The notes under the pieces were generated by a model that was not told where the DNA came from, did no database searches, and saw nothing but the letters and a program-made list of their open reading frames with translations. Made by a program: the position numbers and the translations under genes. Shown here piece by piece: positions 312 through 19,941 of a stretch of 37,432 nucleotides of DNA (positions are counted from its first letter, which is position 1; each line of letters opens with the position of its first letter). The DNA comes from a virus. The stretch is taken from positions 1 to 37,432 of IMG/VR virus record IMGVR_UViG_3300017756_000042; one strand, given 5' to 3'.

Positions 312-415
312 AGCACTACAAGATTGACTGGAAGTACCCAGTCAACGAAACGGAACTCAAGATACTGCTTGAGGAATGGAGTGGATTCTTTACTATCGAG
401 GAGGTGGTAAAATGA
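308..415 (+). CDS. Hypothetical 35-aa protein
   Basis: This very short gene starts at ATG 308, overlapping the upstream stop by 4 nt, with GGAGG at 297-301 as ribosome binding site. It ends at 415 in an ATGA overlap with the next gene. An in-frame start at 233 would lie deep inside the zinc-ribbon gene and is less likely. The peptide has charged and aromatic residues and no recognisable domain. The exact junctions at both ends are the main reason to believe it is translated. Confidence 0.5.
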   Translation: MKHYKIDWKYPVNETELKILLEEWSGFFTIEEVVK

Positions 416-732
416 CGACGATTACCTGCACAGGATGTGGTGGCGAACGCATCATGAATAACGACGAAGACCTGATCGACGTGCCTGAAAACGGCCTGTG
501 CGATTTTGAACTTCACACATGCCCATCCGATCAAGAATTGCTCATGCAAGAGGCGTTTGACGCACTCAAGCGGATAGCGATCTGGTGCGACGATGTAAAA
601 ATGCGCCACAGTGCCCGTGATAAGCACGAGGAACTGACCAAGATGTGGGAGTCGGTGGATATATATACCCCAACCTCCTATCATCAAACAGGCGGGACAA
701 CACCCGCCGAAAACAACAACAAGGAGGAATAG
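412..732 (+). CDS. Hypothetical 106-aa protein with an N-terminal CxxC
   Basis: The start at 412 (ATGA overlap, GAGGAGGTGG upstream) is preferred over an in-frame ATG at 376. CTGCGG sits at the N terminus and two further cysteines (CDFELHTC) near residues 36-43, so a small zinc-binding module is possible. The rest is helical and acidic. The gene's 3' end contains the TATA box and hairpin that precede the next gene, so promoter and coding sequence overlap here. Confidence 0.6.
   Translation: MTTITCTGCGGERIMNNDEDLIDVPENGLCDFELHTCPSDQELLMQEAFDALKRIAIWCDDVKMRHSARDKHEELTKMWESVDIYTPTSYHQTGGTTPAENNNKEE
660..690 (+). promoter_or_regulatory. Promoter copy 1 of a repeated TATA + CAAACA element
   Basis: TATATATA begins at 660 and CAAACA at 685, a spacing of 25 nt, with CTCCTATCAT between them. 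The same arrangement recurs at 2501 and 3399. The position of CAAACA matches where archaeal transcription would begin relative to a TATA box. It serves the gene at 735 and lies inside the end of the preceding gene. Confidence 0.6.
691..708 (+). promoter_or_regulatory. Hairpin in the leader of the 735 gene
   Basis: GGCGGG (691-696) and CCCGCC (703-708) form a perfect 6-bp stem around ACAACA. It lies immediately after the proposed transcription start and about 25 nt before the start codon, with AAGGAGG (721-727) between. The mRNA would therefore begin with a stem-loop, which could affect stability or translation. Confidence 0.45.
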
Positions 733-734
733 AC

Positions 735-1151
735 ATGGACAAAGGACATACACCGAACATAGCACGAGGCGAGGGGCTCATAGCCACTCGAACGAACACC
801 GCCAAACATACCCACGGGGGTACGGGCAAAGTAACACGGGTTACAAACGTACACCTGCACCCTATGGTGCGAACGAAAGCCCACAACGGCGAATCGTACC
901 ACACCTTCCGCAACGGCGACGACCGTGTGCCGATGTGGTGCGAGCAGGGCAAGCCCAAGGAAATTTATGTGGGTCGAATCGAAACTGACAAGGCCCGGAT
1001 TCAATACTTCGTACACATGAACCCACGCCACGAGTCGTTCTACTTGTGGGGCTACGACGAGTGCCCTATCTGTGGACAATCGCTCTATGAGTCGCACTGG
1101 ATGACGTTCAATGCGATTGAAAAGCAAACACCACTGGAGGTGTTACAATGA
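735..1151 (+). CDS. Hypothetical 138-aa protein with CPIC motif
   Basis: The start at 735 follows AAGGAGG at ideal distance, and the in-frame ATG at 645 lies far inside the upstream gene. The first 50 residues are basic and Thr/His-rich. The C-terminal half has an FVHMN segment and CPICGQ near residue 115, a single zinc-knuckle half. It has its own promoter (660-690) and ends in an ATGA overlap with the coiled-coil gene at 1148. I do not recognise the family. Confidence 0.65.
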   Translation: MDKGHTPNIARGEGLIATRTNTAKHTHGGTGKVTRVTNVHLHPMVRTKAHNGESYHTFRNGDDRVPMWCEQGKPKEIYVGRIETDKARIQYFVHMNPRHESFYLWGYDECPICGQSLYESHWMTFNAIEKQTPLEVLQ

Positions 1152-1564
1152 ACGGATTCCGTGACATGGAAGTGTACGATATGGAGCAGGCACTACGCCT
1201 GTTCTGTGACACCTCGACCAGATCGTTCTTGTACGACGTGTGGGGTGCTTACAAGCGAATCGACGAACTCAGCGACCAACTCAACAAGGCGAGCATGGGG
1301 TACGCTAAGCGTGGCGACCTCATCTCCGAACTGAATAACTCGGTACAGTTCTTGGAACGCATGTCTGAGGACAGGCTCAAGTACATCAAGGAACTTGAGG
1401 AACGTGAGGGTATGTTGGAAGACCGTATTCAGGAACTTGAAACGGCCTATGACGAGGTGGACTGGGAGTACAAAGCGACTCTTGAAGCACTCGAATCTGA
1501 GCAGGGCTTGGTGTCTGAACAGGCTGAAATAATTTCCGACCTTCGCAGGGGGGTGGGACAATGA
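1148..1564 (+). CDS. Coiled-coil protein, 138 aa
   Basis: After about 40 N-terminal residues, the chain is a long charged helix with heptad-like spacing of Leu, Ile and Met and many Glu/Lys/Arg (residues about 40-135), so it is probably an elongated coiled-coil dimer. It begins in an ATGA overlap with the gene at 735 (GGAGGTG upstream) and ends in an ATGA overlap with the 38-residue gene at 1561. Function unknown; an oligomerising adaptor or inhibitor is possible but unsupported. Confidence 0.65.
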   Translation: MNGFRDMEVYDMEQALRLFCDTSTRSFLYDVWGAYKRIDELSDQLNKASMGYAKRGDLISELNNSVQFLERMSEDRLKYIKELEEREGMLEDRIQELETAYDEVDWEYKATLEALESEQGLVSEQAEIISDLRRGVGQ

Positions 1565-1677
1565 CGACGATCAAAACCATTGTGCTTAATGTTGAGGACA
1601 TCGCTGACTTTTACGTGTGGCGACTACTGAACCTACTGGGCGAGCATTGGCATGGCCCTGTGGAGGTGGTACAATGA
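1561..1677 (+). CDS. Hypothetical 38-aa protein
   Basis: ATG at 1561 overlaps the upstream stop (ATGA), with AGGGGGGTGGG just before it. The frame stays open to TGA at 1675-1677, which overlaps the ATG of the methyltransferase-like gene at 1674. The peptide is mixed hydrophobic and aromatic, with no motif. The two exact overlaps support translation, if only as a coupling peptide for the next gene. Confidence 0.45.
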   Translation: MTTIKTIVLNVEDIADFYVWRLLNLLGEHWHGPVEVVQ

Positions 1678-2318
1678 GGGTACTGGTAGCCTGTGAGTAT
1701 AGTGGCAAAGTGCGTGAAGCGTTCCGAGCCAAGGGGCATGATGCGTGGTCTTGCGACCTGCTACCTGCTGATGATGACTCACCGTATCACATTCAAGGGG
1801 ATGTGCTTAATGTGCTTGAGCAGGGATGGGATCTGATGGTGGCTCACCCACCATGTACCTACCTCACAGTAGCGGGGGCACGGTGGCTGTATCACCCAGA
1901 TGACAAGCACCTACCTACCAAAGACCGTAGGCCACACCCCAACTACCCTAACCGATTACAACAACGACAGGAGGCCATCGACTTTGTACAGGCTCTCATG
2001 GATGCACCGATACCACGTATTGCCATTGAGAACCCTGTCTCGATGATTTCCTCACTCATTCGACCTGCTGACCAAAAGGTTCAGCCGTACCACTTCGGAC
2101 ATCTTGAGCGCAAGTCTACGTGCTTTTGGCTCAAGGGACTGCCCTTGCTAAAGCATGTGACCGATCTGGAGGCCGAGACGATGGCTCTCCCACCCAAACA
2201 ACGGGACAGGCTTCACTACCTGCCTCCGTCGCCTGATCGATGGAAGTTGCGAAGTGAAACATTTCAAGGGATAGCCGACGCAATGGCTGACCAATGGGGG
2301 GTGTTAGAATGGCTATGA
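1674..2318 (+). CDS. Phage-type DNA cytosine methyltransferase-like protein
   Basis: The 214-residue protein begins MRVLVACEYSG, an AdoMet-binding motif I of the C5-methyltransferase fold. It has HPPC at residues 58-61 in place of the usual PCQ loop and IENP near 118-121 in place of ENV. This matches a compact family common in phages and usually annotated as DNA cytosine methyltransferase. It lacks the long target-recognition region of Dcm enzymes, so its specificity, or whether it methylates DNA at all, is unclear. The start at 1674 uses the ATGA overlap rather than an in-frame start at 1617. Confidence 0.8.
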   Translation: MRVLVACEYSGKVREAFRAKGHDAWSCDLLPADDDSPYHIQGDVLNVLEQGWDLMVAHPPCTYLTVAGARWLYHPDDKHLPTKDRRPHPNYPNRLQQRQEAIDFVQALMDAPIPRIAIENPVSMISSLIRPADQKVQPYHFGHLERKSTCFWLKGLPLLKHVTDLEAETMALPPKQRDRLHYLPPSPDRWKLRSETFQGIADAMADQWGVLEWL

Positions 2319-2470
2319 GTGGATGGGAAGTATATCACTTGGCTCTCGGTGTGCGGTTGCATGTCGATGGAGTCACACCACACCACGTTATCTTGACGAG
2401 GCGTGACAATGGTCGAACATTTGCGGTAGATTACCGCACGTTTGATCTGAACTATCGGAGGCTGGAATGA
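2315..2470 (+). CDS. Hypothetical 51-aa protein
   Basis: A short frame starts at ATG 2315 in an ATGA overlap with the methyltransferase stop, or two codons earlier at 2309. It reads to TGA at 2468-2470. The peptide has alternating hydrophobic and charged residues that could form a small beta sheet, plus basic residues (LTRRDNGR). No family is recognised. It is the last gene of the first accessory operon; the next promoter lies directly downstream. Confidence 0.5.
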   Translation: MSGWEVYHLALGVRLHVDGVTPHHVILTRRDNGRTFAVDYRTFDLNYRRLE

Positions 2471-2500
2471 TGCACCACTTCCGGGTAAGGGGTCGGCACC

Positions 2501-2531
2501 TATAAATAGGGCAACCTCATAGCATCAAACA
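2501..2531 (+). promoter_or_regulatory. Promoter copy 2 of the TATA + CAAACA element
   Basis: TATAAATAGG begins at 2501 and CAAACA at 2526, again 25 nt apart, with CAACCTCATAGCAT between (compare CAACCTCCTATCAT in copy 1). AAGGAGG follows at once and the start codon is at 2545, so the leader would be only about 15-20 nt. It is the most canonical archaeal TATA box in the accessory block. Confidence 0.65.
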
Positions 2532-2544
2532 AGGAGGAATTGAA

Positions 2545-2823
2545 ATGAAAAAATACGAAGATTACCTAAAAGACAAACACGAACCGATGACCGAAGAACA
2601 AATCCGTGACGCTGAGGGGGAGTTTTACGATGCGCTGTATCGCAATCAAGAAGTCGCCAAGCAAATCGTTGATTACCTGATCGCTGAGATTGACTACCTA
2701 CGGAGCATGTATGCCGAAGCCTACTGGTGGATTGGCCGACAAGCCCCACGAGGACAGTCAATCCAAAAGGTGTATCGGAATCTGATGAAAGAGGCCAACC
2801 GAATCAGGGAGGAATTGAAATGA
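2545..2823 (+). CDS. Hypothetical helical 92-aa protein
   Basis: The start at 2545 follows AAGGAGG. The protein is strongly charged and predicted helical throughout, with EEQ/DAEGE and a Tyr/Trp-rich centre (AYWWIGRQ), and no cysteines. It is the first gene of an operon under the promoter at 2501 and ends in an ATGA overlap with the gene at 2820. No known family is recognised. Confidence 0.65.
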   Translation: MKKYEDYLKDKHEPMTEEQIRDAEGEFYDALYRNQEVAKQIVDYLIAEIDYLRSMYAEAYWWIGRQAPRGQSIQKVYRNLMKEANRIREELK

Positions 2824-3053
2824 TGTGGACTTTTGGATCGAAAGCGACTGCTGAGGCCAAGTTCATGACCATGCACGGGCGACTGGGAATGGTCTACAAC
2901 GTGGTGTTCACGTCACGCTCAGTACCGAAGCGTGAACTGGCGAAGCGACTACGTGTCATGCGTAAAAGCGTCGTCGATCAGGGATGGAATGCCAGTGGGA
3001 TTGAGTGGTCGGAATCGACTGACAAGTTGTTCCAGATTTGGAGGAGGGATTGA
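2820..3053 (+). CDS. Hypothetical 77-aa protein
   Basis: ATG 2820 overlaps the upstream stop as ATGATG; an in-frame ATG at 2727 would be buried in the preceding gene. The protein is basic, with a Lys/Arg-rich middle (about residues 35-50), and ends in an aromatic segment WRRD. It could bind nucleic acid, but no motif proves it. The next gene begins 2 nt after its stop, preceded by GGAGGGAT, so the two are likely co-translated. Confidence 0.6.
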   Translation: MMWTFGSKATAEAKFMTMHGRLGMVYNVVFTSRSVPKRELAKRLRVMRKSVVDQGWNASGIEWSESTDKLFQIWRRD

Positions 3054-3054
3054 T

Positions 3055-3405
3055 ATGTCTGTTCAAGGATATGTCTTCGCCTGTTTCTATGTGGAAGAGG
3101 TTGACGAGTGGATTATCGAATCGAATCCGATTGAGATGAAAAGCAAGGAGGGAGTGTACCAGTGGATGAAACACCATTGGCTGGAAGACAAACCTACTGA
3201 ATCTCACATACTACGCACCGACCCTGCCGAAGTTCTGCTCATGACTCACACCGACGAGTCACGTACTAACGACAAGGACAACCCGCATGCAAGTGATGTG
3301 GGGTGGGCTCTAAGCAACACCCTGATCGCTGTACAAGGTAACTGTGCCTTCTTCGCTGAAACTTCCGGGCTCATGCGACAAGTGTTGGAGGCGATGGGTA
3401 TATAG
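3055..3405 (+). CDS. Hypothetical 116-aa protein
   Basis: The start at 3055 lies just after the upstream stop with GAGGAGGGAT as ribosome binding site; the longer in-frame start at 2932 is unlikely. The N-terminal half looks like a small alpha/beta domain (VFACFYVEE) and the C-terminal half contains AVQGNCAFFAETSG. No domain is recognised. Its last codons contain the TATATA of promoter copy 3. Confidence 0.6.
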   Translation: MSVQGYVFACFYVEEVDEWIIESNPIEMKSKEGVYQWMKHHWLEDKPTESHILRTDPAEVLLMTHTDESRTNDKDNPHASDVGWALSNTLIAVQGNCAFFAETSGLMRQVLEAMGI

Positions 3406-3429
3406 GGGTGATACTCCTACCAACAAACA
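3399..3429 (+). promoter_or_regulatory. Promoter copy 3 of the TATA + CAAACA element
   Basis: TATATAGGGG begins at 3399 and CAAACA at 3424, the same 25-nt spacing as copies 1 and 2, with ACTCCTACCAA between. It overlaps the end of the gene at 3055 and precedes the gene at 3472. Confidence 0.6.
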
Positions 3430-3436
3430 GCCCGGA

Positions 3437-3450
3437 GGCACACCTGTGCC
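3437..3450 (+). promoter_or_regulatory. Hairpin in the leader of the 3472 gene
   Basis: GGCAC (3437-3441) and GTGCC (3446-3450) form a 5-bp stem with loop ACCT, inside a perfect inverted repeat. Like the hairpin at 691-708, it lies between the proposed transcription start and the AAGGAGG ribosome binding site. Confidence 0.4.
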
Positions 3451-3471
3451 GACCGCTAAGGAGGAATAAAA

Positions 3472-3663
3472 ATGCAAGACATAAGTGAAAAAATAATGGC
3501 AAGACACGAACTAACACCGATGGGATTCTTGAGGTGGCGAGCCAACCGTGATAACGATGTGATGATGTATCTCGTCGAATCGTTTCTGGCCTTGGCCGAC
3601 TCTCGAGAAGTCACCGACCTACTGACCGAACTGTACCTTGAACTCGGGGAGGGATTGGATTGA
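3472..3663 (+). CDS. Hypothetical helical 63-aa protein
   Basis: The start at 3472 follows AAGGAGGAATAAAA. The protein is all-helical in appearance, with a basic patch (RWRANRD) followed by an amphipathic Leu-rich C-terminal half. No motif is recognised. Its last codons include GGGGAGGGATTGG, the ribosome binding site for the TTG-started zinc protein that overlaps its stop at 3660-3663. Confidence 0.6.
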   Translation: MQDISEKIMARHELTPMGFLRWRANRDNDVMMYLVESFLALADSREVTDLLTELYLELGEGLD

Positions 3664-4056: not shown

Positions 4057-4217
4057 TTAAGTACTGGAGTGATAAATTGTATAACTGGGGCAGGGAATAC
4101 CGAACACTAAACCTGTTGGGCTCGGTTTCTGTTTTCTGTTGTTTCACCTCCTTGGCACACATCTCATGGTGTTCCCGCCCCACCTTTCATCAGGAGGTAA
4201 TTTCATGCGTAAGATGA
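4053..4217 (+). CDS. Possible small membrane protein, 54 aa (uncertain)
   Basis: ATG 4053 overlaps the upstream stop (ATGA) and GGAGGTGAAGAAG precedes it. The frame runs to 4217 and has a hydrophobic stretch of about 20 residues (LNLLGSVSVFCCF and on) that could be a membrane segment. It overlaps the start of the winged-helix gene at 4205 by 13 nt. The alternative is that this stretch is the long leader of that gene, in which case the frame is spurious. Confidence 0.3.
   Translation: MIKYWSDKLYNWGREYRTLNLLGSVSVFCCFTSLAHISWCSRPTFHQEVISCVR
4146..4198 (+). promoter_or_regulatory. Possible Shine-Dalgarno-sequestering leader of the 4205 gene
   Basis: ACCTCCT at 4146-4152 is perfectly complementary to AGGAGGT at 4192-4198, the ribosome binding site of the gene at 4205. 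Pairing would hide that site in a 7-bp stem with a loop of about 40 nt. A weak TATAAC at 4080 with CACTAAAC 25 nt later could be a degenerate fourth copy of the accessory promoter and would give a leader of about 100 nt. Confidence 0.35.
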
Positions 4218-4946: not shown

Positions 4947-5187
4947 ATTAATTTTATTTCTTTCAGTGTTTCAGACGAAAATAATTCGATTGACTGAGCC
5001 CCTGATCGGGTGAATTAATTTATTTCTTCATAAGGGTTTGAATGTAAGCGGTCTTACTACTATACTGTATTACTACTACTATTATTATTCTTTACAACTC
5101 CTATACGAAATAAACTAATTAGCGTTGATCGATGTACTGCATTGGATTTATTTGCGTTCTGAAAATTGAAAGAATAAAATTAATTCA
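4943..5187. repeat. AT-rich intergenic region with repeats; candidate origin or control region
   Basis: The gap between 4946 and 5226 is the longest non-coding stretch and is visibly AT-rich. GTGAATTAATTTTATTTCTT at 4943-4962 recurs almost exactly at 5010-5028. An inverted copy (AGAATAAAATTAATTCA) lies at 5171-5187 and a degenerate inverted one at 5107-5121. A run of TACTAC/TATTAT triplets lies between, about 5052-5091. The repeats separate the accessory and replication blocks and lie next to the MCM operon, as an origin might. Transcription termination is an alternative reading of the T-rich parts. Confidence 0.45.
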
Positions 5188-5192
5188 GATAC

Positions 5193-5204
5193 CTTGATAT
5201 ACTG
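5193..5204 (+). promoter_or_regulatory. TATA box for the 5226 operon
   Basis: CTTGATATACTG centred near 5200 lies about 26 nt before ATG 5226, so transcription would begin at or very near the start codon. GGTGAT at 5217-5222 lies between. GATATACTG recurs upstream of 11897, and TATATACTGG upstream of 10967 and 19223. Confidence 0.6.
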
Positions 5205-5225
5205 ACGATACGAAATGGTGATAAT

Positions 5226-6092
5226 ATGAAACGAATCAAGCACGACACAATAGACATCTACACCAACAAGGGTGTACAAGCAAAGCACTTTGACGACTTA
5301 CTGAACGTAGTCGTCTTTGCTGAAAACGAATACGGTAATGCGCCAACACTTCTGTTTAGAAGCATCTTCGGTGATTCTAAACCTAGTGCCTACGTTAGTA
5401 GTCACTTGTTGGCGGAACTCGGATTCAACTCAGCACCTAGCATGGATGACATCGGTTGGGAACTATACATACACAAAGTCACAAAGTCTGTATGGGTTAG
5501 GGTCACAGGCTGGCCTACTACCTCTCTCTTCCCTCCAGATCAATCACGTGGCAACTGGATTTACACATACCCAGTTGTTCGTGACTTACTAGAGTGGTTA
5601 AAGAATCCTACTGGCGATAATGTCAACGACTCAATCAAATGTATGTACATCACAAGTAGTACACTACATGATGCTCTCGAGTCTGACGAGTACCCGATAC
5701 TCGATCCTGAAGACATCTACCACTACAACCTTATGACCGATGCTGTTACCAAATATACTGGTGCCACAGGGGGCAAAGGTAAGCGTATGAAGAAGGGTGA
5801 CTTGAGGTTGTTCCTCACACCACCTACGTGGATGTTCCCTAAGTTGGCTCTAATGCAACATTATGTTGCGCCTAGTATAGTAGTGGTGGGACACAAAGAC
5901 GAGCCCATAGACGTTGATGCTGGGGCATCTTTGATGGAATACTTTAGAGGGTATCAACCAGACCCTGCACTCTTCGATGTGGCTGTGATTGAACTGACCG
6001 ACCAGATCGCTAAGCACAAGAAGGCTAAGTCGGACTTCCTACAAGCCATCGAAGACGCTGAACCACAACCAAACAACATGCTATGGGGATGA
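5226..6092 (+). CDS. Unknown 288-aa protein, first gene of the helicase operon
   Basis: A soluble alpha/beta protein of 288 residues without a recognisable nucleotide-binding, nuclease or zinc motif. Residues about 30-115 are beta-rich with several Trp (VWVRVTGWP). A basic segment GGKGKRMKKG lies near 184-193, and the C terminus is helical and charged. It has its own TATA box and lies 4 nt upstream of the MCM-like gene, so a role in replication initiation or helicase loading is plausible by position only. Confidence 0.65.
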   Translation: MKRIKHDTIDIYTNKGVQAKHFDDLLNVVVFAENEYGNAPTLLFRSIFGDSKPSAYVSSHLLAELGFNSAPSMDDIGWELYIHKVTKSVWVRVTGWPTTSLFPPDQSRGNWIYTYPVVRDLLEWLKNPTGDNVNDSIKCMYITSSTLHDALESDEYPILDPEDIYHYNLMTDAVTKYTGATGGKGKRMKKGDLRLFLTPPTWMFPKLALMQHYVAPSIVVVGHKDEPIDVDAGASLMEYFRGYQPDPALFDVAVIELTDQIAKHKKAKSDFLQAIEDAEPQPNNMLWG

Positions 6093-7415: not shown

Positions 7416-7670
7416 ATGGGTAAAAAAACAATTATTAGATGGAAAAACTTAGCATACAAGTACCTGCTCGAAAACGGACCATGTACTGCCGAACACTTAC
7501 TAAGCGCAATTCAGCACCGCTTTATGCCTACTGGTGTACAGCAGGTGACACAACAGTTCTTGCGTGATCCTAGATTCAGGCAACAGGACACAACCAAAGG
7601 TTCGTTTCACAGCGGAGCCCACCACTACAAAGTGCTTGAATGGGTAGCAGTCGAGGGGGTGGAGGAATGA
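7416..7670 (+). CDS. Winged-helix protein, 84 aa
   Basis: The start at 7416 lies 2 nt after the helicase stop, with GGAGGAATAAAT before it. The sequence runs LAYKYLLENGPCTAEHLLSAI, then a helix ending in FLRDPRF, then a wing with SFHSG and a closing strand HYKVLEWV. This is the same plan as the protein at 10527 (EHGPCTREEVAAHL, LMSKNPQ). It probably binds DNA; a helicase-loading or regulatory role is inferred from position. The C terminus is acidic, and its stop overlaps the methyltransferase start (ATGA). Confidence 0.65.
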   Translation: MGKKTIIRWKNLAYKYLLENGPCTAEHLLSAIQHRFMPTGVQQVTQQFLRDPRFRQQDTTKGSFHSGAHHYKVLEWVAVEGVEE

Positions 7671-8560
7671 AGATTCGGAACGTGGTAGCGCCTTTTGATG
7701 GTATCTCGTGTGGCCGACTGGCTTTAGAGCGAGCAGGTATCGAGTTCGATAACTACTACTCGTCTGAGATAGACAAGTATGCCATTGAGATTGCTGATAA
7801 AAACTATCCTGACAACATACAGTTGGGTGACATTCTCAACTGGCGTGACTGGGATCTGGAAAATGTCGATTTGATTATGGGTGGATCTCCCTGTCAAGGT
7901 TTTTCCATGGCGGGCCAAAGGCTCAACTTTGATGACCCTCGTAGCCGTCTGTTCTTTGACTTTGTAGACCTTGTGAAACACTACAAGCCGAAGTATTTCT
8001 TATTGGAAAACGTAAGGATGCGAAAGGACATTCAAGATGCCATATCAACCATACTTGGAGTGCAACCTATCCTGATCAATTCAGGTCTGTTGTCAGCACA
8101 AAGCAGGGATAGATTATATTGGACAAACATTCCCAATATCACCCAGCCGAAGGACAAGGGTATCTATCTAAAGGACATCGTTGAAACGGACATAGAGGAT
8201 GTTAGAGGTGGGGACTTGCAGGAATTCTTTAGTCAAAGGGTAGGTGTACTTTCGCCAAGAGGACTGTGCCACATAGGTACAGCCGACCTGAAAGCAATAG
8301 AGTCTTTGAAAAGAGTGTACCACATTGACGGCAAAAGCCCAACACTTACCACGAGTATGGGTGGGCACCGGGAAGCCAAGGTAGCAACAAGTGAAACAGC
8401 GTGGCGAAAACTCACACCACTGGAGTGCGAGCGACTACAAACTCTTCCTGATAACTACACAGAAGGAGTAAGTAACACACGTAGATACAAGGCCATTGGT
8501 AACGGCTGGACTATTGATGTAATATCCCATATCCTCAAGCATATGGAGGTGAGTGAATGA
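7667..8560 (+). CDS. dcm: DNA C5-cytosine methyltransferase
   Basis: A 297-residue enzyme of the Dcm family. Motif I is FDGISCGRLALERAGI (residues 10-25), the catalytic loop GGSPCQGFS has Cys76, ENV is at 114-116 and QSRDRLYW forms motif VIII. A short target-recognition segment follows, then motifs IX and X (RKLTPLECERLQ, then KAIGNGW). All catalytic elements are present, so it should transfer methyl groups from AdoMet to cytosine in duplex DNA. The start at 7667 uses the ATGA overlap. No restriction endonuclease lies next to it, which fits an orphan viral modification enzyme. Confidence 0.92.
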   Translation: MKIRNVVAPFDGISCGRLALERAGIEFDNYYSSEIDKYAIEIADKNYPDNIQLGDILNWRDWDLENVDLIMGGSPCQGFSMAGQRLNFDDPRSRLFFDFVDLVKHYKPKYFLLENVRMRKDIQDAISTILGVQPILINSGLLSAQSRDRLYWTNIPNITQPKDKGIYLKDIVETDIEDVRGGDLQEFFSQRVGVLSPRGLCHIGTADLKAIESLKRVYHIDGKSPTLTTSMGGHREAKVATSETAWRKLTPLECERLQTLPDNYTEGVSNTRRYKAIGNGWTIDVISHILKHMEVSE

Positions 8561-9096: not shown

Positions 9097-9302
9097 ACGT
9101 AGCAACGATGGCATATGAGATGTTTAAGCAGGGGCTGAGGCTCTACATAAATGCCGAAAGGAACACTTATGAGTGGTATCTTGGTCATTACAAAGTCACG
9201 ACAAAATCTTTGCGTGAGGCGTGGGGCATCAACGCTTATCAACTGGCGCAGTTCTATGATTGGTTGCTGACAAATGAAACGGAGTTGATTACATGGGTGT
9301 GA
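9093..9302 (+). CDS. Hypothetical 69-aa protein, GTG start
   Basis: The frame begins at GTG 9093 in a GTGA overlap with the upstream stop; ATG 9108 is an alternative. It is helical and aromatic-rich (MFKQGLRLYI, WYLGHYKV), with a possible HTH in residues 35-62 (TTKSLREAWGINAYQLAQFY). It ends overlapping the gene at 9293 by 10 nt. No family is recognised. Confidence 0.55.
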   Translation: MNVATMAYEMFKQGLRLYINAERNTYEWYLGHYKVTTKSLREAWGINAYQLAQFYDWLLTNETELITWV

Positions 9303-10526: not shown

Positions 10527-10934
10527 ATGAGTCGTAATAATAACAACAAGCGCAAGCGACGAGCCATCGTTGAGATCCTCTTCGAGCATGGCCCTTGCAC
10601 TCGTGAAGAAGTAGCGGCTCATCTTAGCAATAGGCGTGGTGTTCGACACGTGCCTTCGCCAAATAGTATCTCGGCACTGATGTCTAAGAACCCACAAACA
10701 ATTATTGTTGGAAAGCAAAAGGTTGAGTCCACAAATGGCGAGAAGTCTTTTCATATGTTATTCGATGTTGATCGGGAAGTAATCAAGGAGATTAGTGATT
10801 TGATACATACTCGCCCTATCTCGATCATGACTCCGAAGGAAAAGAAACTCGCTGTTCAATGTAAGTCCTGTGGATGTACACGCATTATGCCAGATCAGGC
10901 TACTAAATGTCTGACGTGCCAACGTAAATCGTAG
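10527..10934 (+). CDS. Winged-helix protein with C-terminal zinc ribbon, 135 aa
   Basis: A basic N terminus (NNNNKRKRR) leads into a winged helix: AIVEILFEHGPCTREEVAAHL, a recognition helix SPNSISALMSKNP, then a wing and closing strand SFHMLFDVD (about residues 10-95). The C terminus carries CKSCGC and CLTC (about 110-131), a zinc ribbon. It has its own TATA box and stands alone before the RFC gene. A viral transcription factor is the most natural reading, perhaps acting on the compact promoters of this block. Confidence 0.7.
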   Translation: MSRNNNNKRKRRAIVEILFEHGPCTREEVAAHLSNRRGVRHVPSPNSISALMSKNPQTIIVGKQKVESTNGEKSFHMLFDVDREVIKEISDLIHTRPISIMTPKEKKLAVQCKSCGCTRIMPDQATKCLTCQRKS

Positions 10935-10966: not shown

Positions 10967-11872
10967 ATGCGTGAAGTATGGGCAGTAAAATACAGACCTA
11001 ACGACCTAACCGAGTTTGTTGGACAGGACTCTATGCGTGATGAGTTCCAACAAATTATTGATGGCAAAGCAAAACCACAGCACTATATCTTCTATTCTCC
11101 CGAGCCGGGAACTGGGAAGACCAGTCTCGCTCACATCTTAGCAAAGAAGTTGGGTTATGTTATTCATCAATACAATGCATCGAGCAAGCATCAGCGAGGT
11201 ATCGAGTTCGTTGAGCAAGACCTTGCGCCTAAGACAAGGCTTGGTCAGTATGAAACCTTCTTCTTCTTAGACGAAGCGGATCAACTGACACCTGCCGCAC
11301 AATCAGCACTCAAGGGTGTCATCGAAGGGGCGCAGGGCTACTTCATCTTGACCTGCAACGACCTAAGCAAAGTCAGCCGATGGCTACAATCCCGGTGCCA
11401 AGTTCGAGTATTCCAACCGCTTGACACCGAGGATGTACTTGTACGACTCCGTGCTGTAGCCAATGCTGAGAACGTGTCCATCGCTGATAGCGGATTGGCA
11501 CTGATCGCTAAGGCGCATGAAGGTGATCTTCGCAACTCAATCAACGCACTACAAGCATACCACACAATGCCCGAAGGCTCAAAGAATAAATTCCTGCTGG
11601 GCTTGGACAAACCTGATCTGGATGCTAAGCGTTTTCTCACTCTATGTATGCGTGAGAAGCAGGTAGAGGATGCAGTCAACATGATACATCCTAATCCCAA
11701 CCTACGTCGAATGATTGATTCAATCTTTGAGTACGGTATCAACTCCCCCGCTAAGGCTGAAAACAAGTTAAAGTTAGTAGAGTCTGCAACACAAGCGCAA
11801 CGTGACCTGATCGATGGTGTCGAGGATCACTATGTTGCTTGGGACTTTTGCAGGCGACTGGCGAAGGCTTGA
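10967..11872 (+). CDS. rfcS: Replication factor C small subunit (clamp loader)
   Basis: The 301-residue protein begins with the RFC-box-like VWAVKYRPNDLTEFVGQ. It has Walker A PEPGTGKTS (residues 45-53), Walker B FFFLDEAD (98-105), sensor 1 TCND (129-132) and the SRC arginine-finger motif (142-144), then a helical collar domain. All catalytic residues of an archaeal RFC small subunit are present. It should load the PCNA-like clamp encoded at 14222. No RFC large subunit is seen, so the virus may form a homomeric loader or borrow the host large subunit. ATG 10967 is preferred because the TATA box is 26 nt upstream. Confidence 0.93.
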   Translation: MREVWAVKYRPNDLTEFVGQDSMRDEFQQIIDGKAKPQHYIFYSPEPGTGKTSLAHILAKKLGYVIHQYNASSKHQRGIEFVEQDLAPKTRLGQYETFFFLDEADQLTPAAQSALKGVIEGAQGYFILTCNDLSKVSRWLQSRCQVRVFQPLDTEDVLVRLRAVANAENVSIADSGLALIAKAHEGDLRNSINALQAYHTMPEGSKNKFLLGLDKPDLDAKRFLTLCMREKQVEDAVNMIHPNPNLRRMIDSIFEYGINSPAKAENKLKLVESATQAQRDLIDGVEDHYVAWDFCRRLAKA

Positions 11873-11880
11873 TATACTGG
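11869..11880 (+). promoter_or_regulatory. TATA box for the ssDNA-binding/clamp operon
   Basis: TTGATATACTGG at 11869-11880 is centred about 24 nt before ATG 11897; AAGGGGTGA lies between. The TATA box overlaps the last codon and stop of the RFC gene. Confidence 0.6.
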
Positions 11881-11896
11881 AAGGGGTGAATGTTAA

Positions 11897-13117
11897 ATGG
11901 AGGCAAAAAATATGCAAGTTAATCAGATGATTGAACGAATAAGCAAGAATATCGGATGCAATGAGGACACCCTACGTTCTCGAATGGACAGTGTACTGTC
12001 CGAACACAAGGGTGTTTGGTTGGATGCGGGAAAGACAGACGAGGACTGTCAGGTAAACGCACTACGAATCGCAGGTCGCCAGATCAAAAGCGAGGGTGAA
12101 AAGTTGAAGCGCAGTGGAGCAACTCTCTTCGAGGGTATGTTCGTCAGCGTTCCACGTTACAAAGACTGGGCTGAGTTGGCTTACAAGAAGGCCGCTACTA
12201 CTATTCTTGGTGGCAATCCTACTGTGGTCGAGGCTCTCATTGAGCAAGGCAACATCACTCTCTATGAGGACAACAACGACGGTACGTTCACAAAGAAGTA
12301 CAACCCCTCACTTTACCAGCGTGTTGAGTTTGAGGAAGGTATGGAAGAGAGCGAACTACAAAGTCTGCCAAAGAACACCTATGACGCAGGTAATGGAATA
12401 CACTTCCATTTGATCTGGGACAAGACAAACTTGACCTTCCCGTCTGGTGATAACAACTTCAAGTATGGTGCGCCACGCCCTCTCTCCGAGAAGGATCGTT
12501 CCTGTTACTTCTTGGGTCGCAAGGCTGGCACTTCTGATGAAGTCAAGTTGTGGTCCTTCCGTTTCAACGGTGCGCTTGCTGAGCAACAACCACCTGCGTT
12601 TGTCGCAGGTAGTATTGCTATGCGCCCTGCCCGTAACGGTGAGGTAGCATACGGCAAGGCCGGGCTCTCTACCTTCAACCATGACGATTCAGTACAGTCC
12701 ATCTTCCCCGATGCGCCTGATGCTCTCGTCGCAGGTCTTGACCAGTTCGCTACTCTTGAGGGCGGGCTACAAGACATTGAAGCATACGTTGGCACACTCG
12801 ATGACAAGCAACGATGGGATGCGCTCAGCGCAGTCATCTGTGAGGCTGTTCACATCGACCCACGTGACAACGGTGGTTTCATTATCACTGTCGGTGATCT
12901 GGACATCATGAGTACTGCGGGAACCGTAGACATCTACGTTCCACATACCCAGTCGAGTCTTGTTGATTTCTCAGTAGGCTCTACACTCATGGTAGTCGGT
13001 TCACCCTACATCAGCCGAGATGGTGAAGGCAAATTGGCCGTCACTGGTTGGTGGTGTGCTGAGTCACTCTCAGCATCCACCCCATCTGAGTCTGATTCCG
13101 AAGGAGGTTGGGACTGA
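11897..13117 (+). CDS. Probable RPA-like single-stranded DNA-binding protein
   Basis: A 406-residue protein. Residues about 60-270 are rich in strands with many Phe/Tyr/Trp, and 310-395 look like a second beta-barrel (FIITVGDLDI, LMVVGSPYI). The last ten residues are acidic and end SDSEGGWD, like the partner-binding tail of SSB proteins. It is cotranscribed with a RecA-like ATPase, clamp and polymerase. Domain assignment is by pattern and context only. ATG 11912 is an alternative start. Its stop overlaps the next start (TGATG). Confidence 0.55.
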   Translation: MEAKNMQVNQMIERISKNIGCNEDTLRSRMDSVLSEHKGVWLDAGKTDEDCQVNALRIAGRQIKSEGEKLKRSGATLFEGMFVSVPRYKDWAELAYKKAATTILGGNPTVVEALIEQGNITLYEDNNDGTFTKKYNPSLYQRVEFEEGMEESELQSLPKNTYDAGNGIHFHLIWDKTNLTFPSGDNNFKYGAPRPLSEKDRSCYFLGRKAGTSDEVKLWSFRFNGALAEQQPPAFVAGSIAMRPARNGEVAYGKAGLSTFNHDDSVQSIFPDAPDALVAGLDQFATLEGGLQDIEAYVGTLDDKQRWDALSAVICEAVHIDPRDNGGFIITVGDLDIMSTAGTVDIYVPHTQSSLVDFSVGSTLMVVGSPYISRDGEGKLAVTGWWCAESLSASTPSESDSEGGWD

Positions 13118-15025: not shown

Positions 15026-15369
15026 TGCCACGTTTCAGATACCCTTTACCGAAGGGTGTTACTGAGGCTGAGTACGAAGCCGCTCTTGAATACACTGGGT
15101 TAAGACACTGGGTTTTCAAGCGAAAGAAAGGCGTGTTGATCAGGGGGATGCTGATGGTTGCTTTGCTTAGGTACTCTAAGCGAGATGAGAATGAATGGTT
15201 TGATCCGCAGGTCTTATCCGATGAGATAGTACCGATGCAACCTTTGGGTGGCACTCCGCTAATCTCGGTAGCCCGTATCAACTCTCTTATGCGACAAGTA
15301 GTACGCAAGGTTGATCGGTGGGAATATAGACACGGCAAACTGAAAATAGAATACAGAAGGACTAAGTAG
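15025..15369 (+). CDS. Hypothetical basic 114-aa protein
   Basis: ATG 15025 overlaps the clamp stop (TGATG). The protein is basic with a helical middle (LIRGMLMVALLRYSKR) and a C-terminal SLMRQVVRKVDRWEYRHGKLKI, which could be a degenerate winged helix. It sits between clamp and polymerase, so a DNA-binding replication accessory is possible. No family is recognised. Confidence 0.6.
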   Translation: MPRFRYPLPKGVTEAEYEAALEYTGLRHWVFKRKKGVLIRGMLMVALLRYSKRDENEWFDPQVLSDEIVPMQPLGGTPLISVARINSLMRQVVRKVDRWEYRHGKLKIEYRRTK

Positions 15370-15391
15370 TGGATAGGGTAGATGATAGTCT

Positions 15392-17653
15392 ATGATTGTC
15401 AATAACACACGTGGTCGAAAGGTCGTGATTAGATACCGTGACCCCAACACCCTTGAGCGTCAACCCGATCTGGTATTGGAGAAGTACCCGTACTGCTTCG
15501 TACCTACGGCATCGCTTACTGATCGCTACGGCCTAGTCCGTGTCGAGGATGGGTATGAGGGTGTCTATGGTGCAGAACTGTCGAAGGTTTATTTCAGAAC
15601 TGAATATGATAGGCGTGAGTGGTGTAGGTCAAACACTACATGGGAAGGTAACATCCCTTTTACTAATCAAGTCCTGATCGACAGGGTTGTTGAGGGTACC
15701 GAACCTATCCCATACTATGAGCATCGAGTATGGTACATTGACGGTGAATGGAAGAAGGAGTCAGAAGAGATTACAGTCTTGAGTGCCCTTGATTCTTACA
15801 CTGGTAAGATGTACACTTGGGTATGTCACCCTGATGTACAACCCGGTATGGTCAGTAGTCTGCCTTGTAAAGAACATCCCGATGGCCTAAGCGAAGTATG
15901 CTTTGATCCGCCCGCCAAGGCTTTTGCTAATGAGCGACAACTGCTTGCTGACTTTGCCATGCATATGAAAAAGCAAGACCCCGACATCATCACTGGTTGG
16001 TATGTGGTGGATGCTGACGTATCTACGATCAGCACAAGGATGCGTAGGCTTGGACTCAAACCCGAACTCATGTCCCCTCACAACCAACACATCTACAAGT
16101 ACGCTTGGAGTGAAAAGCGATGGACTCAGCCGATACCCGGACGTATGTGTATTGACCTCATGGTTGCGTTCAAGAAGTTATGGACTATCAAGAACGGACA
16201 GTTAGCAGGTCAGAAGTTAGATGATATAGCCGAGTTCGTTCTGAAGGAACGCAAGGTCGAGTTACCTAATGGGCACGATACATACTACACGGACATTGGT
16301 ACATACGTGGACTACAACCGACAAGATGTACGCTTGCTACCTCGCTTAGATGAGGCCGTCAATGCTACTGGTTACTACACCAACCTACAACATCTAGTTC
16401 AGTGTGAGATTGAAACAACACCACTGACCACACTTCCTGCATCCTGTATGTTCCTACAAGATGAAGAGTTCGAGTACCGAATACCAGATCGACCACAGTT
16501 CGCTAAGGTAGACTACACTGGTGCTGATGTGCAAGACGTTGTTCCGGGTCGCTATGAAACGATGGCGATTATGGACATCAAGGCTATGTATCACAGCAAC
16601 GTCAAGTTGCATAACATCTGCTGGACTACCCTGTCCGATCAGGGTCAAGACTGTGGCAACGGCACGAAGTTCACACAGGACAAAGACGGCTTGCTCGGTA
16701 GGACTATGGACAAATTGACTGTCAAGCGTAACGAATACAAGGCTCTCATGAAACAGGCTTTGGCTGACGGCGACATGACGGCCTACAAGAAGTGGGATGG
16801 GGCACAGTTCGCAACGAAGTCTATGGTCGCATCCTTGTACGGTGTAGCAGGTGACTCTAAGTACGGACTGTATCACCCCGAGATAGCATCCTCAATCACA
16901 TTCACATCTCGTCAGACGTTGTTCAGACTACGTGACGAGTGCAACGACAGGGGCTACCCTGTCCACTACGGACACACCGATTCTATTTTCTGTGCCGTAC
17001 CCAGTCCCGAAGAAGGATTGGAACTGGTAGCCAAGATCAACGAAGCCATGTACCCCATCGAGACTGAGTTCGAGAAGTGGTGCGAGTCTATGATTTTGAA
17101 AGCCAAGAATCGCTACGCAGGTAAAGTCACATGGACTGATGGCCGACACCATCTACCCGAGTATTACTACAAGGGGCTGGAGTTGAAACAGGCACGTATG
17201 CCGAAGGCTATGAAGTCCACTATGGATGCGATCCTACGTGGCATACTCGATGGTACTGATAAGACTGAGGTCGATGACATCCTATGCGCCCTGATCAAGA
17301 AAGGCAACAAAGGTGAGATGGCTGAGGACTTGCTTGAGAAGGGCAAGTTGAAGCAGCCCCTGTCCAAGTACAAGGTCTTGAGTGGTGCGTCAGCAGGCGC
17401 GGCATGGGCTAAGGTGAACATGGGTAGGGACTATGAAGTCGATGAGTCCTTCTTGACGGCGATCAACAAGCGTGGTGAATGGATGGGATTCGATAGTCTG
17501 CAATCAATCGAAGGTGTCGCTGAGGTTGATTGGGCAGGGCTGACTGAGAAGTACATTGTCAATAAGGCATGTCACATCTACGATCTGGTAGATTGGGATG
17601 TCCAGCCTTTATGGAACGCTCACTTGGGTAAAGGTGATGTTCAGTGGCTATAA
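15392..17653 (+). CDS. polB: Family B DNA polymerase with proofreading exonuclease
   Basis: A 753-residue enzyme. Exo I is YIDGEW near residues 115-120 (Asp and Glu present), Exo II lies in DIITGWYVVDAD and Exo III is YNRQDV near 310. In the polymerase domain, motif A is MDIKAMYHSN (about 393), motif B TKSMVASLYG (about 475), motif C YGHTDS (about 525) and the thumb motif KNRYAG. The second Asp of motif C, which binds metal, is kept while the first is His. This makes it an active replicative polymerase working with the clamp and loader encoded upstream. Its size is typical of compact archaeal or viral PolB. No clear TATA box is seen before ATG 15392. Confidence 0.95.
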   Translation: MIVNNTRGRKVVIRYRDPNTLERQPDLVLEKYPYCFVPTASLTDRYGLVRVEDGYEGVYGAELSKVYFRTEYDRREWCRSNTTWEGNIPFTNQVLIDRVVEGTEPIPYYEHRVWYIDGEWKKESEEITVLSALDSYTGKMYTWVCHPDVQPGMVSSLPCKEHPDGLSEVCFDPPAKAFANERQLLADFAMHMKKQDPDIITGWYVVDADVSTISTRMRRLGLKPELMSPHNQHIYKYAWSEKRWTQPIPGRMCIDLMVAFKKLWTIKNGQLAGQKLDDIAEFVLKERKVELPNGHDTYYTDIGTYVDYNRQDVRLLPRLDEAVNATGYYTNLQHLVQCEIETTPLTTLPASCMFLQDEEFEYRIPDRPQFAKVDYTGADVQDVVPGRYETMAIMDIKAMYHSNVKLHNICWTTLSDQGQDCGNGTKFTQDKDGLLGRTMDKLTVKRNEYKALMKQALADGDMTAYKKWDGAQFATKSMVASLYGVAGDSKYGLYHPEIASSITFTSRQTLFRLRDECNDRGYPVHYGHTDSIFCAVPSPEEGLELVAKINEAMYPIETEFEKWCESMILKAKNRYAGKVTWTDGRHHLPEYYYKGLELKQARMPKAMKSTMDAILRGILDGTDKTEVDDILCALIKKGNKGEMAEDLLEKGKLKQPLSKYKVLSGASAGAAWAKVNMGRDYEVDESFLTAINKRGEWMGFDSLQSIEGVAEVDWAGLTEKYIVNKACHIYDLVDWDVQPLWNAHLGKGDVQWL

Positions 17654-19222: not shown

Positions 19223-19375
19223 ATGAACAAAATACTATGCCCTGAGTGCGAACACGATGCCTTTGATACAGATGCCATGATGCTTGTGACAGGACAAGTA
19301 GGCGGCCCTCATGAAAAGATGATGGTAGTCCACACCTGTCATGCGTGTGGTCACAAGTGGAGGGGTCAGGCTTGA
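19223..19375 (+). CDS. TFIIS-like zinc ribbon, 50 aa
   Basis: The frame from ATG 19223 to TGA 19373-19375 encodes 50 residues with CPEC at 6-9 and CHACGHKW near 40-47. This is the CxxC-x(30)-CxxCGxxW layout of TFIIS and RNA polymerase subunit M-type ribbons. It has its own TATA box 26 nt upstream. It could interact with RNA polymerase, though no catalytic acidic hairpin can be confirmed. The next gene starts at TTG 19372, overlapping the stop. Confidence 0.65.
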   Translation: MNKILCPECEHDAFDTDAMMLVTGQVGGPHEKMMVVHTCHACGHKWRGQA

Positions 19376-19941
19376 ACGTAGGCTTCAAGAAAGACGGTAC
19401 CCCTCGACTATCAAAAGCAATAGACAAAGCCGTGATGAGTCATGCGTCTGTTGAGTGGGGTACTCCCCCAGATCTCTTTGAGGCAATCAGCGAATCTGTT
19501 GGTGGTTTTGATCTGGATGCCGCGGCTAGCGACAAGAAGCACGTGTGTGATAACTACTTCACGGCTGAGTCCGATGCCCTGTCGCAAGAGTGGCACGGTA
19601 AAGTGTGGCTCAACCCCCCGTTCGGTCACGGTGTAGAGCAGTGGTTCGAGAAGGTGGTGAACGAGGTTCACACCAACGCTGATTCTGTACACGTATTGAT
19701 CCCTGCGAGGACTGATACTCGATGGTTCCACGAGTGGGTTATGCCATTCGCTACTGAAATTTACTTCTTCAAAGGGCGATTGTACTACGTGAACGAAAAC
19801 GGTGAGAACAAAAACCCTGCGGCATTCCCGTCTATGCTGTGTGTATTCAAGAAAAAGACAGGCGCATGTGGTGATGTCCCAACAATCAAAGCATCCCCAC
19901 GTGATGGAAGTGCGTTCAAGGAGGCGGTGGAGTGGCTTTAG
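19372..19941 (+). CDS. dam: Dam-type DNA N6-adenine methyltransferase
   Basis: About 189 residues from TTG 19372. The key motifs are EWGTPPDLFEAI, FDLDAAAS (AdoMet-side acidic motif) and the catalytic LNPPFG, plus FFKGRLYYV. This is the phage Dam family that methylates adenine N6, often at GATC. TTG 19372 lies in a TTGA overlap with GGAGGGG upstream. GTG 19345 and ATG 19435 are alternatives; the latter still keeps the whole domain. No partner restriction gene is near. AAGGAGG at its 3' end is the ribosome binding site of the primase. Confidence 0.88.
   Translation: MNVGFKKDGTPRLSKAIDKAVMSHASVEWGTPPDLFEAISESVGGFDLDAAASDKKHVCDNYFTAESDALSQEWHGKVWLNPPFGHGVEQWFEKVVNEVHTNADSVHVLIPARTDTRWFHEWVMPFATEIYFFKGRLYYVNENGENKNPAAFPSMLCVFKKKTGACGDVPTIKASPRDGSAFKEAVEWL

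Follow-up and report, generated by a model that had tools for sequence, protein, structure and literature searches.

A sequence pattern that recurs ahead of small genes in an uncultured marine virus raises the question of whether it represents ordinary archaeal promoters or a distinct class of promoters whose genes would be expressed together. We addressed this in a 37.4-kb IMG/VR virus record, referred to here in its full length as the window; the record is a fragment, and further copies are possibly missing at its left end. The pattern TATAWA-N19-CAAACA occurs exactly three times in the window, at 660-690, 2501-2531, and 3399-3429, always on the plus strand and confined to 0.66-3.4 kb, against 0.02 occurrences expected from dinucleotide shuffles (0/100 shuffles reached three). 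The three exact copies named in a preliminary description of this DNA, together with their spacing, are therefore borne out. Because the hexamer and its spacing had been picked post hoc, we used a control that admitted every hexamer and every offset between 10 and 40 nt from TATAWA; one of 200 shuffles then contained three sites with a common offset and hexamer.

The likeness of the copies extends between the two boxes. Their inner tracts (CTCCTATCA, CTCATAGCA, and CTCCTACCA in copies 1-3) begin 15 nt past the first T of the TATA box, and CTCNTANCA is common to all three at an identical offset, such that the tract earlier described as partly shared does exist but was understated. Even with three mismatches allowed, TATAWA-N9-CTCNTANCA-N-CAAACA matches only these three sites in the window, and the weak fourth copy suggested at 4080 (TATAACTGGGGCAGG...) has to be discarded; this site is without CTCNTANCA or CAAACA and lies inside an open reading frame (ORF), about 125 nt from the next Shine-Dalgarno site and ATG. 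All three copies run into AAGGAGGAAT followed by an ATG, and of the four occurrences of AAGGAGGAAT in the window three are the ribosome sites of these leaders. The offset from the first T to the C-A of CAAACA is 25-26 nt in every copy, matching the spacing between an archaeal TATA box and a Y-R start. The ORF upstream of copy 1 (413-732, plus strand) reads on through promoter and leader to a stop codon just past the ribosome site, and the gene upstream of copy 3 (3055-3405, plus strand) terminates at a stop codon located where that copy's TATA box ends.

Table 1 Positions in the window of the promoter copies, their leaders and first genes, and the promoters of the replication genes.
Feature	Position	Strand	Remark
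TATA box, copy 1 (TATATATA)	660..667	+	
CTCCTATCA-T-CAAACA, copy 1	675..690	+	predicted start ~686, first A of CAAACA
Leader hairpin, copy 1 (GGCGGG-ACAACA-CCCGCC)	691..708	+	-12.8 kcal/mol, z = -5.9
Shine-Dalgarno site AAGGAGGAAT, copy 1	721..730	+	
Operon 1, first gene	735..1151	+	138 aa, no family
Operon 1, remaining genes	1148-1564, 1561-1677, 1674-2318	+	last is DNA methyltransferase
TATA box, copy 2 (TATAAATA)	2501..2508	+	
CTCATAGCA-T-CAAACA, copy 2	2516..2531	+	predicted start ~2527
Shine-Dalgarno site AAGGAGGAAT, copy 2	2531..2540	+	
Operon 2, first gene	2545..2823	+	92 aa, helical protein
TATA box, copy 3 (TATATA)	3399..3404	+	
CTCCTACCA-A-CAAACA, copy 3	3414..3429	+	predicted start ~3425
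Leader hairpin, copy 3 (CGG-A-GGCAC-ACCT-GTGCC-GA-CCG)	3433..3455	+	-12.1 kcal/mol, z = -2.2
Shine-Dalgarno site AAGGAGGAAT, copy 3	3458..3467	+	
Operon 3, first gene	3472..3663	+	63 aa, no family
Class B promoter (TGATATACTGACG...)	5195..5228	+	opens replication module; predicted leaderless ATG 5226; 24.3 bits
Weaker class B promoter	10938		before RFC small-subunit gene
Class B promoter	11870..11893	+	before 11897-13117
Class B-like promoter	15362..15394	+	before PolB (15392-17653)
Further class B-like site	17656		before 17685
Further class B-like site	19194		before next gene

The three copies head operons of small accessory genes, as had been proposed. Family searches with the first genes of all three operons gave no match, and for those of operons 1 and 2 a direct scan of viral contigs recovered no close relatives. 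In the relatives G003/G018 the C-terminal 53 aa of the operon 1 protein find a match at 43%, and tblastn against fetched records placed orthologues of the 92-aa gene of operon 2 in the accessory blocks of 12 related records, with a promoter of its own directly upstream in G005 and G003/G018 and a position deeper within the block in the remainder. A regulatory role for the 92-aa protein was considered and set aside, as a structure search returned weak helical-bundle matches only (CstR, Z 6.2; FrmR, 4.9; T4 Vs.4, 4.2), with scores in the range expected for unrelated helical proteins. The DNA methyltransferase of operon 1 matches phrog_757 and is compatible with restriction evasion. This one virus encodes three DNA methyltransferases of different PHROG families (1674-2318, 7667-8560, and 19345-19941, plus strand), and for the first and last of these a homologue was found in none of the related records searched.

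Elsewhere in the window, a plus-strand replication module encodes a family B DNA polymerase (PolB), an RFC small-subunit-like clamp loader, a PCNA-like processivity factor, a Sak4-like protein, an exonuclease, and an XPF-like protein, and a minus-strand block holds a minor tail protein and very long ORFs. Viral contigs yielded 65 relatives of the window PolB, at roughly 45-75% identity, and its nearest GenBank homologs belong to haloarchaeal tailed viruses at ~23% identity; no related PolB was recovered from archaeal genome contigs, and a single distant match (28%) came from a bacterial MAG. From the replication genes and the promoter type we infer an archaeal host. Rfam and tRNA scans of the window yielded nothing, and we found no literature joining magroviruses with promoters. 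A 135-aa protein encoded at 10527-10934 (plus strand) is conserved in 37 related records and is predicted, at pLDDT 90, to fold as a winged helix with a Cys4 zinc site at the C terminus. Its nearest folds are 2od5, a marine nucleic-acid-binding protein (Z 11.4), and further winged-helix regulators; it is a candidate viral transcription factor, and nothing links it to the promoters of the accessory genes.

The replication genes of these same viruses carry a promoter of another kind, TATATA-[G/C]TGGCG, which we call class B, in agreement with the earlier suggestion that the accessory promoters are distinct from those of replication. Class B gave 82 matches in the near group and 1 among distant records (shuffles, ~1.2 and ~2). 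In most cases in relatives the first ATG follows the TATA box by 26-28 nt, and since such an ATG lies only ~27 nt from the TATA box, class B transcripts should be leaderless. Between the accessory block and the first class B promoter of the window lies an AT-rich non-coding stretch (4947-5194) that holds GAATTAATT-like repeats; similar AT-rich stretches occur near the same place in relatives, and a replication origin here is possible.

These distances also bear on where transcription of the accessory genes should begin. In the tailed archaeal virus HF2 the TATA box begins at -26, and by analogy with this spacing and with the class B start codons the predicted start site should fall inside CAAACA, which agrees with the start position claimed for the hexamer in the preliminary description.

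We then compared the three copies with promoters of near relatives (PolB 67-76% identical; 22 near records), in which the block upstream of the replication module is again composed of small genes. This syntenic accessory block contains 2-7 copies per genome (6 in G002, 7 in G017, 5 in G014, 5-6 in G042, 4 in G005, and 2 in G003) of an element, class A, with a TATA box, usually GGGG-N3-CCCC, an AT-rich stretch, AAACA/AAATG at the expected point of transcription start, a leader, a Shine-Dalgarno site, and an ATG; window copy 2, TATAAATAGGGCAACCTCATAGCATCAAACAAGGAGG, may be set beside a G006 copy, TATAAATAGGGGCAACCCCTATATCAAATCGGAG, as an example of the likeness. When 11 class A copies were compiled into a matrix, it gave 33 matches in the 22 near records and 1 in distant records (local shuffles, ~0.4 and ~0.6), including matches in G010, G011, and G041, records outside its training set. 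The window copies are divergent and escape this matrix, and we assign them to class A by position, architecture, and partial likeness. More distant relatives lack class A as well as class B.

Within class A, likeness falls to background less than 10 nt upstream of the TATA box; as similarity is confined to the element, the copies are not just recent duplications. At offsets 10-24, identity among copies of the same genome exceeds identity between genomes, and the promoter is retained by six orthologous locus pairs drawn from different genomes. The median first gene over 31 class A copies is 75 aa. The GGGG-N3-CCCC symmetry, ~13 nt after the TATA box in relatives, was reached in 0/1000 shuffles and would be in keeping with repressor binding immediately past the TATA box. 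This G/C dyad is poor in the window copies, of which only copy 3 is fairly symmetric, and a perfect-dyad operator was accordingly rejected for them. Other repeated elements were seen in the relatives. The G003 record (L110) carries a further repeated promoter type, TTTATATCC[TG]ATG, before small genes at 9199, 12746, and 14030, and outside the accessory block TATAGTCTTA recurs in G002 (L123; 20515 and 21038, with GAGAGAG tracts following) and in G016 (L141; 20893 and 21024), possibly as a third promoter class.

The hexamer itself proved to be private to this genome. As a conserved element CAAACA is not supported, the exact TATAWA-N19-CAAACA being absent from 50 related records. The outcome in relatives is thus mixed, in that the hexamer has been lost but promoter position, TATA-to-start spacing, and leader layout are kept before related gene blocks. 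In IMG/VR at large the CAAACA promoter pattern has 39 matches; only two of these carry any match to a window protein (RFC-like in L077 and a 35-aa match in L101), and nothing similar to the window inner tract was found among the 39 matches. Outside this record, the near-complete motif is matched just once in IMG/VR, by chance, in an unrelated contig where neither a Shine-Dalgarno site nor a start codon follows.

Class A leaders are of two kinds. In the short kind, represented by window copy 2, CAAACA passes straight into the Shine-Dalgarno site and there is no hairpin; in the long kind, represented by copies 1 and 3, a GC-rich hairpin precedes a stretch rich in A and C, with A+C making up 90% of the 12 nt ahead of the Shine-Dalgarno site in long class A leaders. 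Long class A leaders had a mean folding z of -2.67 (n = 18) versus -0.46 for other Shine-Dalgarno leaders of the same genomes (n = 46; p = 6e-6, which is optimistic because some leaders come from closely related records). Many class A copies in relatives have no hairpin yet retain the promoter. Where present, the hairpin would probably protect the 5' end and leave the ribosome site open.

Several explanations may be weighed against these observations. One may postulate that the sites are ordinary unregulated archaeal promoters, combining a TATA box with an initiator preference and a favoured leader and carrying no regulatory meaning; the TATA box, Y-R initiator, and Shine-Dalgarno site are indeed generic archaeal features, and the core spacing, which fits the HF2 distance, would fit any archaeal promoter. 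We regard this as unlikely, however, because the common tract between TATA box and start lies outside the core promoter, because one virus group has two classes with distinct inner sequences that its distant relatives lack, and because the inner positions resemble each other more within a genome than between genomes. A signal acting primarily in translation, with hairpin and Shine-Dalgarno site serving as a translational operator or as an mRNA stabiliser and the resemblance of the promoters of secondary importance, would account for the strong structure of long leaders and the stable hairpins in two of the three window copies. It is nonetheless an improbable account, given that copy 2 and the many hairpin-free copies of relatives keep the promoter, and that conservation is strongest ahead of the predicted start, in sequence that would not be transcribed.

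The remaining alternative is that a promoter cassette was recently duplicated inside this genome and has yet to diverge, without any common role. The copies do lie within 2.8 kb of one another, and their CAAACA version occurs in none of the 50 related records; however, flanks and downstream genes are unrelated, similarity ends at the element edges, and in relatives the corresponding block carries distinct versions of the element ahead of conserved genes, which makes such an origin very improbable.

We consider it likely that the three sites are complete promoter and leader units of one expression class, and the shared inner tract, common Shine-Dalgarno site, and homologous elements in relatives support the promoter class first put forward in the preliminary description. 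Host TBP and TFB would bind the TATA box and RNA polymerase would start in CAAACA, with C at -1 and A at +1, to produce an mRNA whose leader is short or, alternatively, long with a hairpin, and is completed by a strong Shine-Dalgarno site before a small accessory gene. The TATA-to-start sequence would be read by a regulator that the virus encodes; a repressor is the likeliest form, and it may shut the accessory genes down after early infection. A virus-encoded regulator would be well suited because this sequence is similar within a genome and divergent between genomes, a pattern that fits an inner sequence co-evolving with a virus factor in a shared regulatory class. As relatives have their own version on the same gene block, the element appears to mark one coordinated gene class, which would be kept apart from class B as the source of leaderless replication mRNAs. 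More tentatively, promoter class may be coupled to translation mode, with accessory mRNAs leadered by hairpin and Shine-Dalgarno site and replication mRNAs leaderless, and with a lineage-specific, fast-changing operator by which each virus would silence only its own accessory class; we hold this extension to be possible but doubtful.

Comparison with better-known viruses is consistent with two expression classes, and under this reading early expression and control by the virus are probable for class A. In HF2, repeat promoters fall into two classes associated with gene blocks (PMC8707807); the likeness drawn here is one of layout, and the polymerases are distantly related (~23% identity). In both cases a tailed archaeal virus places two promoter classes on different gene blocks, with several copies sharing their TATA-to-start sequence and a position kept among relatives, and virus-encoded factors have been proposed. 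HF2 class I, however, covers early-middle genes including replication and class II covers late genes, whereas here class A precedes accessory genes and class B replication genes; the HF2 repeats were moreover tested in a reporter, and a hairpin is not mentioned in the HF2 text. In Sulfolobales viruses, SIRV2 and SIFV among them, a virus-specific early promoter stands before small, often anti-defence genes (PMC11065993). Like class A, theirs is a virus-specific consensus around a strong promoter before many small genes of one block, with a common core, surroundings that vary by virus, and some inverted repeats taken as repressor sites. Those promoters mostly serve single genes in viruses of Sulfolobales hosts, with early timing measured and some anti-defence roles proven, whereas here operons are served in marine viruses known from sequence, and the leader hairpin accompanies a Shine-Dalgarno site. 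By this analogy, early timing of class A is plausible, and some of its genes may act against host defences.

What is added here is an uncultured marine virus clade with an accessory and a replication promoter class, each with its own inner sequence and leader kind. A promoter signature of one co-expressed block would permit candidate early, host-takeover, and anti-defence genes to be chosen from sequence alone, an approach used before for Sulfolobales viruses. No member of this clade is in culture, and the greater part of the accessory genes have no match. If true, the presence in one virus of hairpin-leadered mRNAs with Shine-Dalgarno sites versus leaderless mRNAs would bear on the timing of translation in archaeal viruses.
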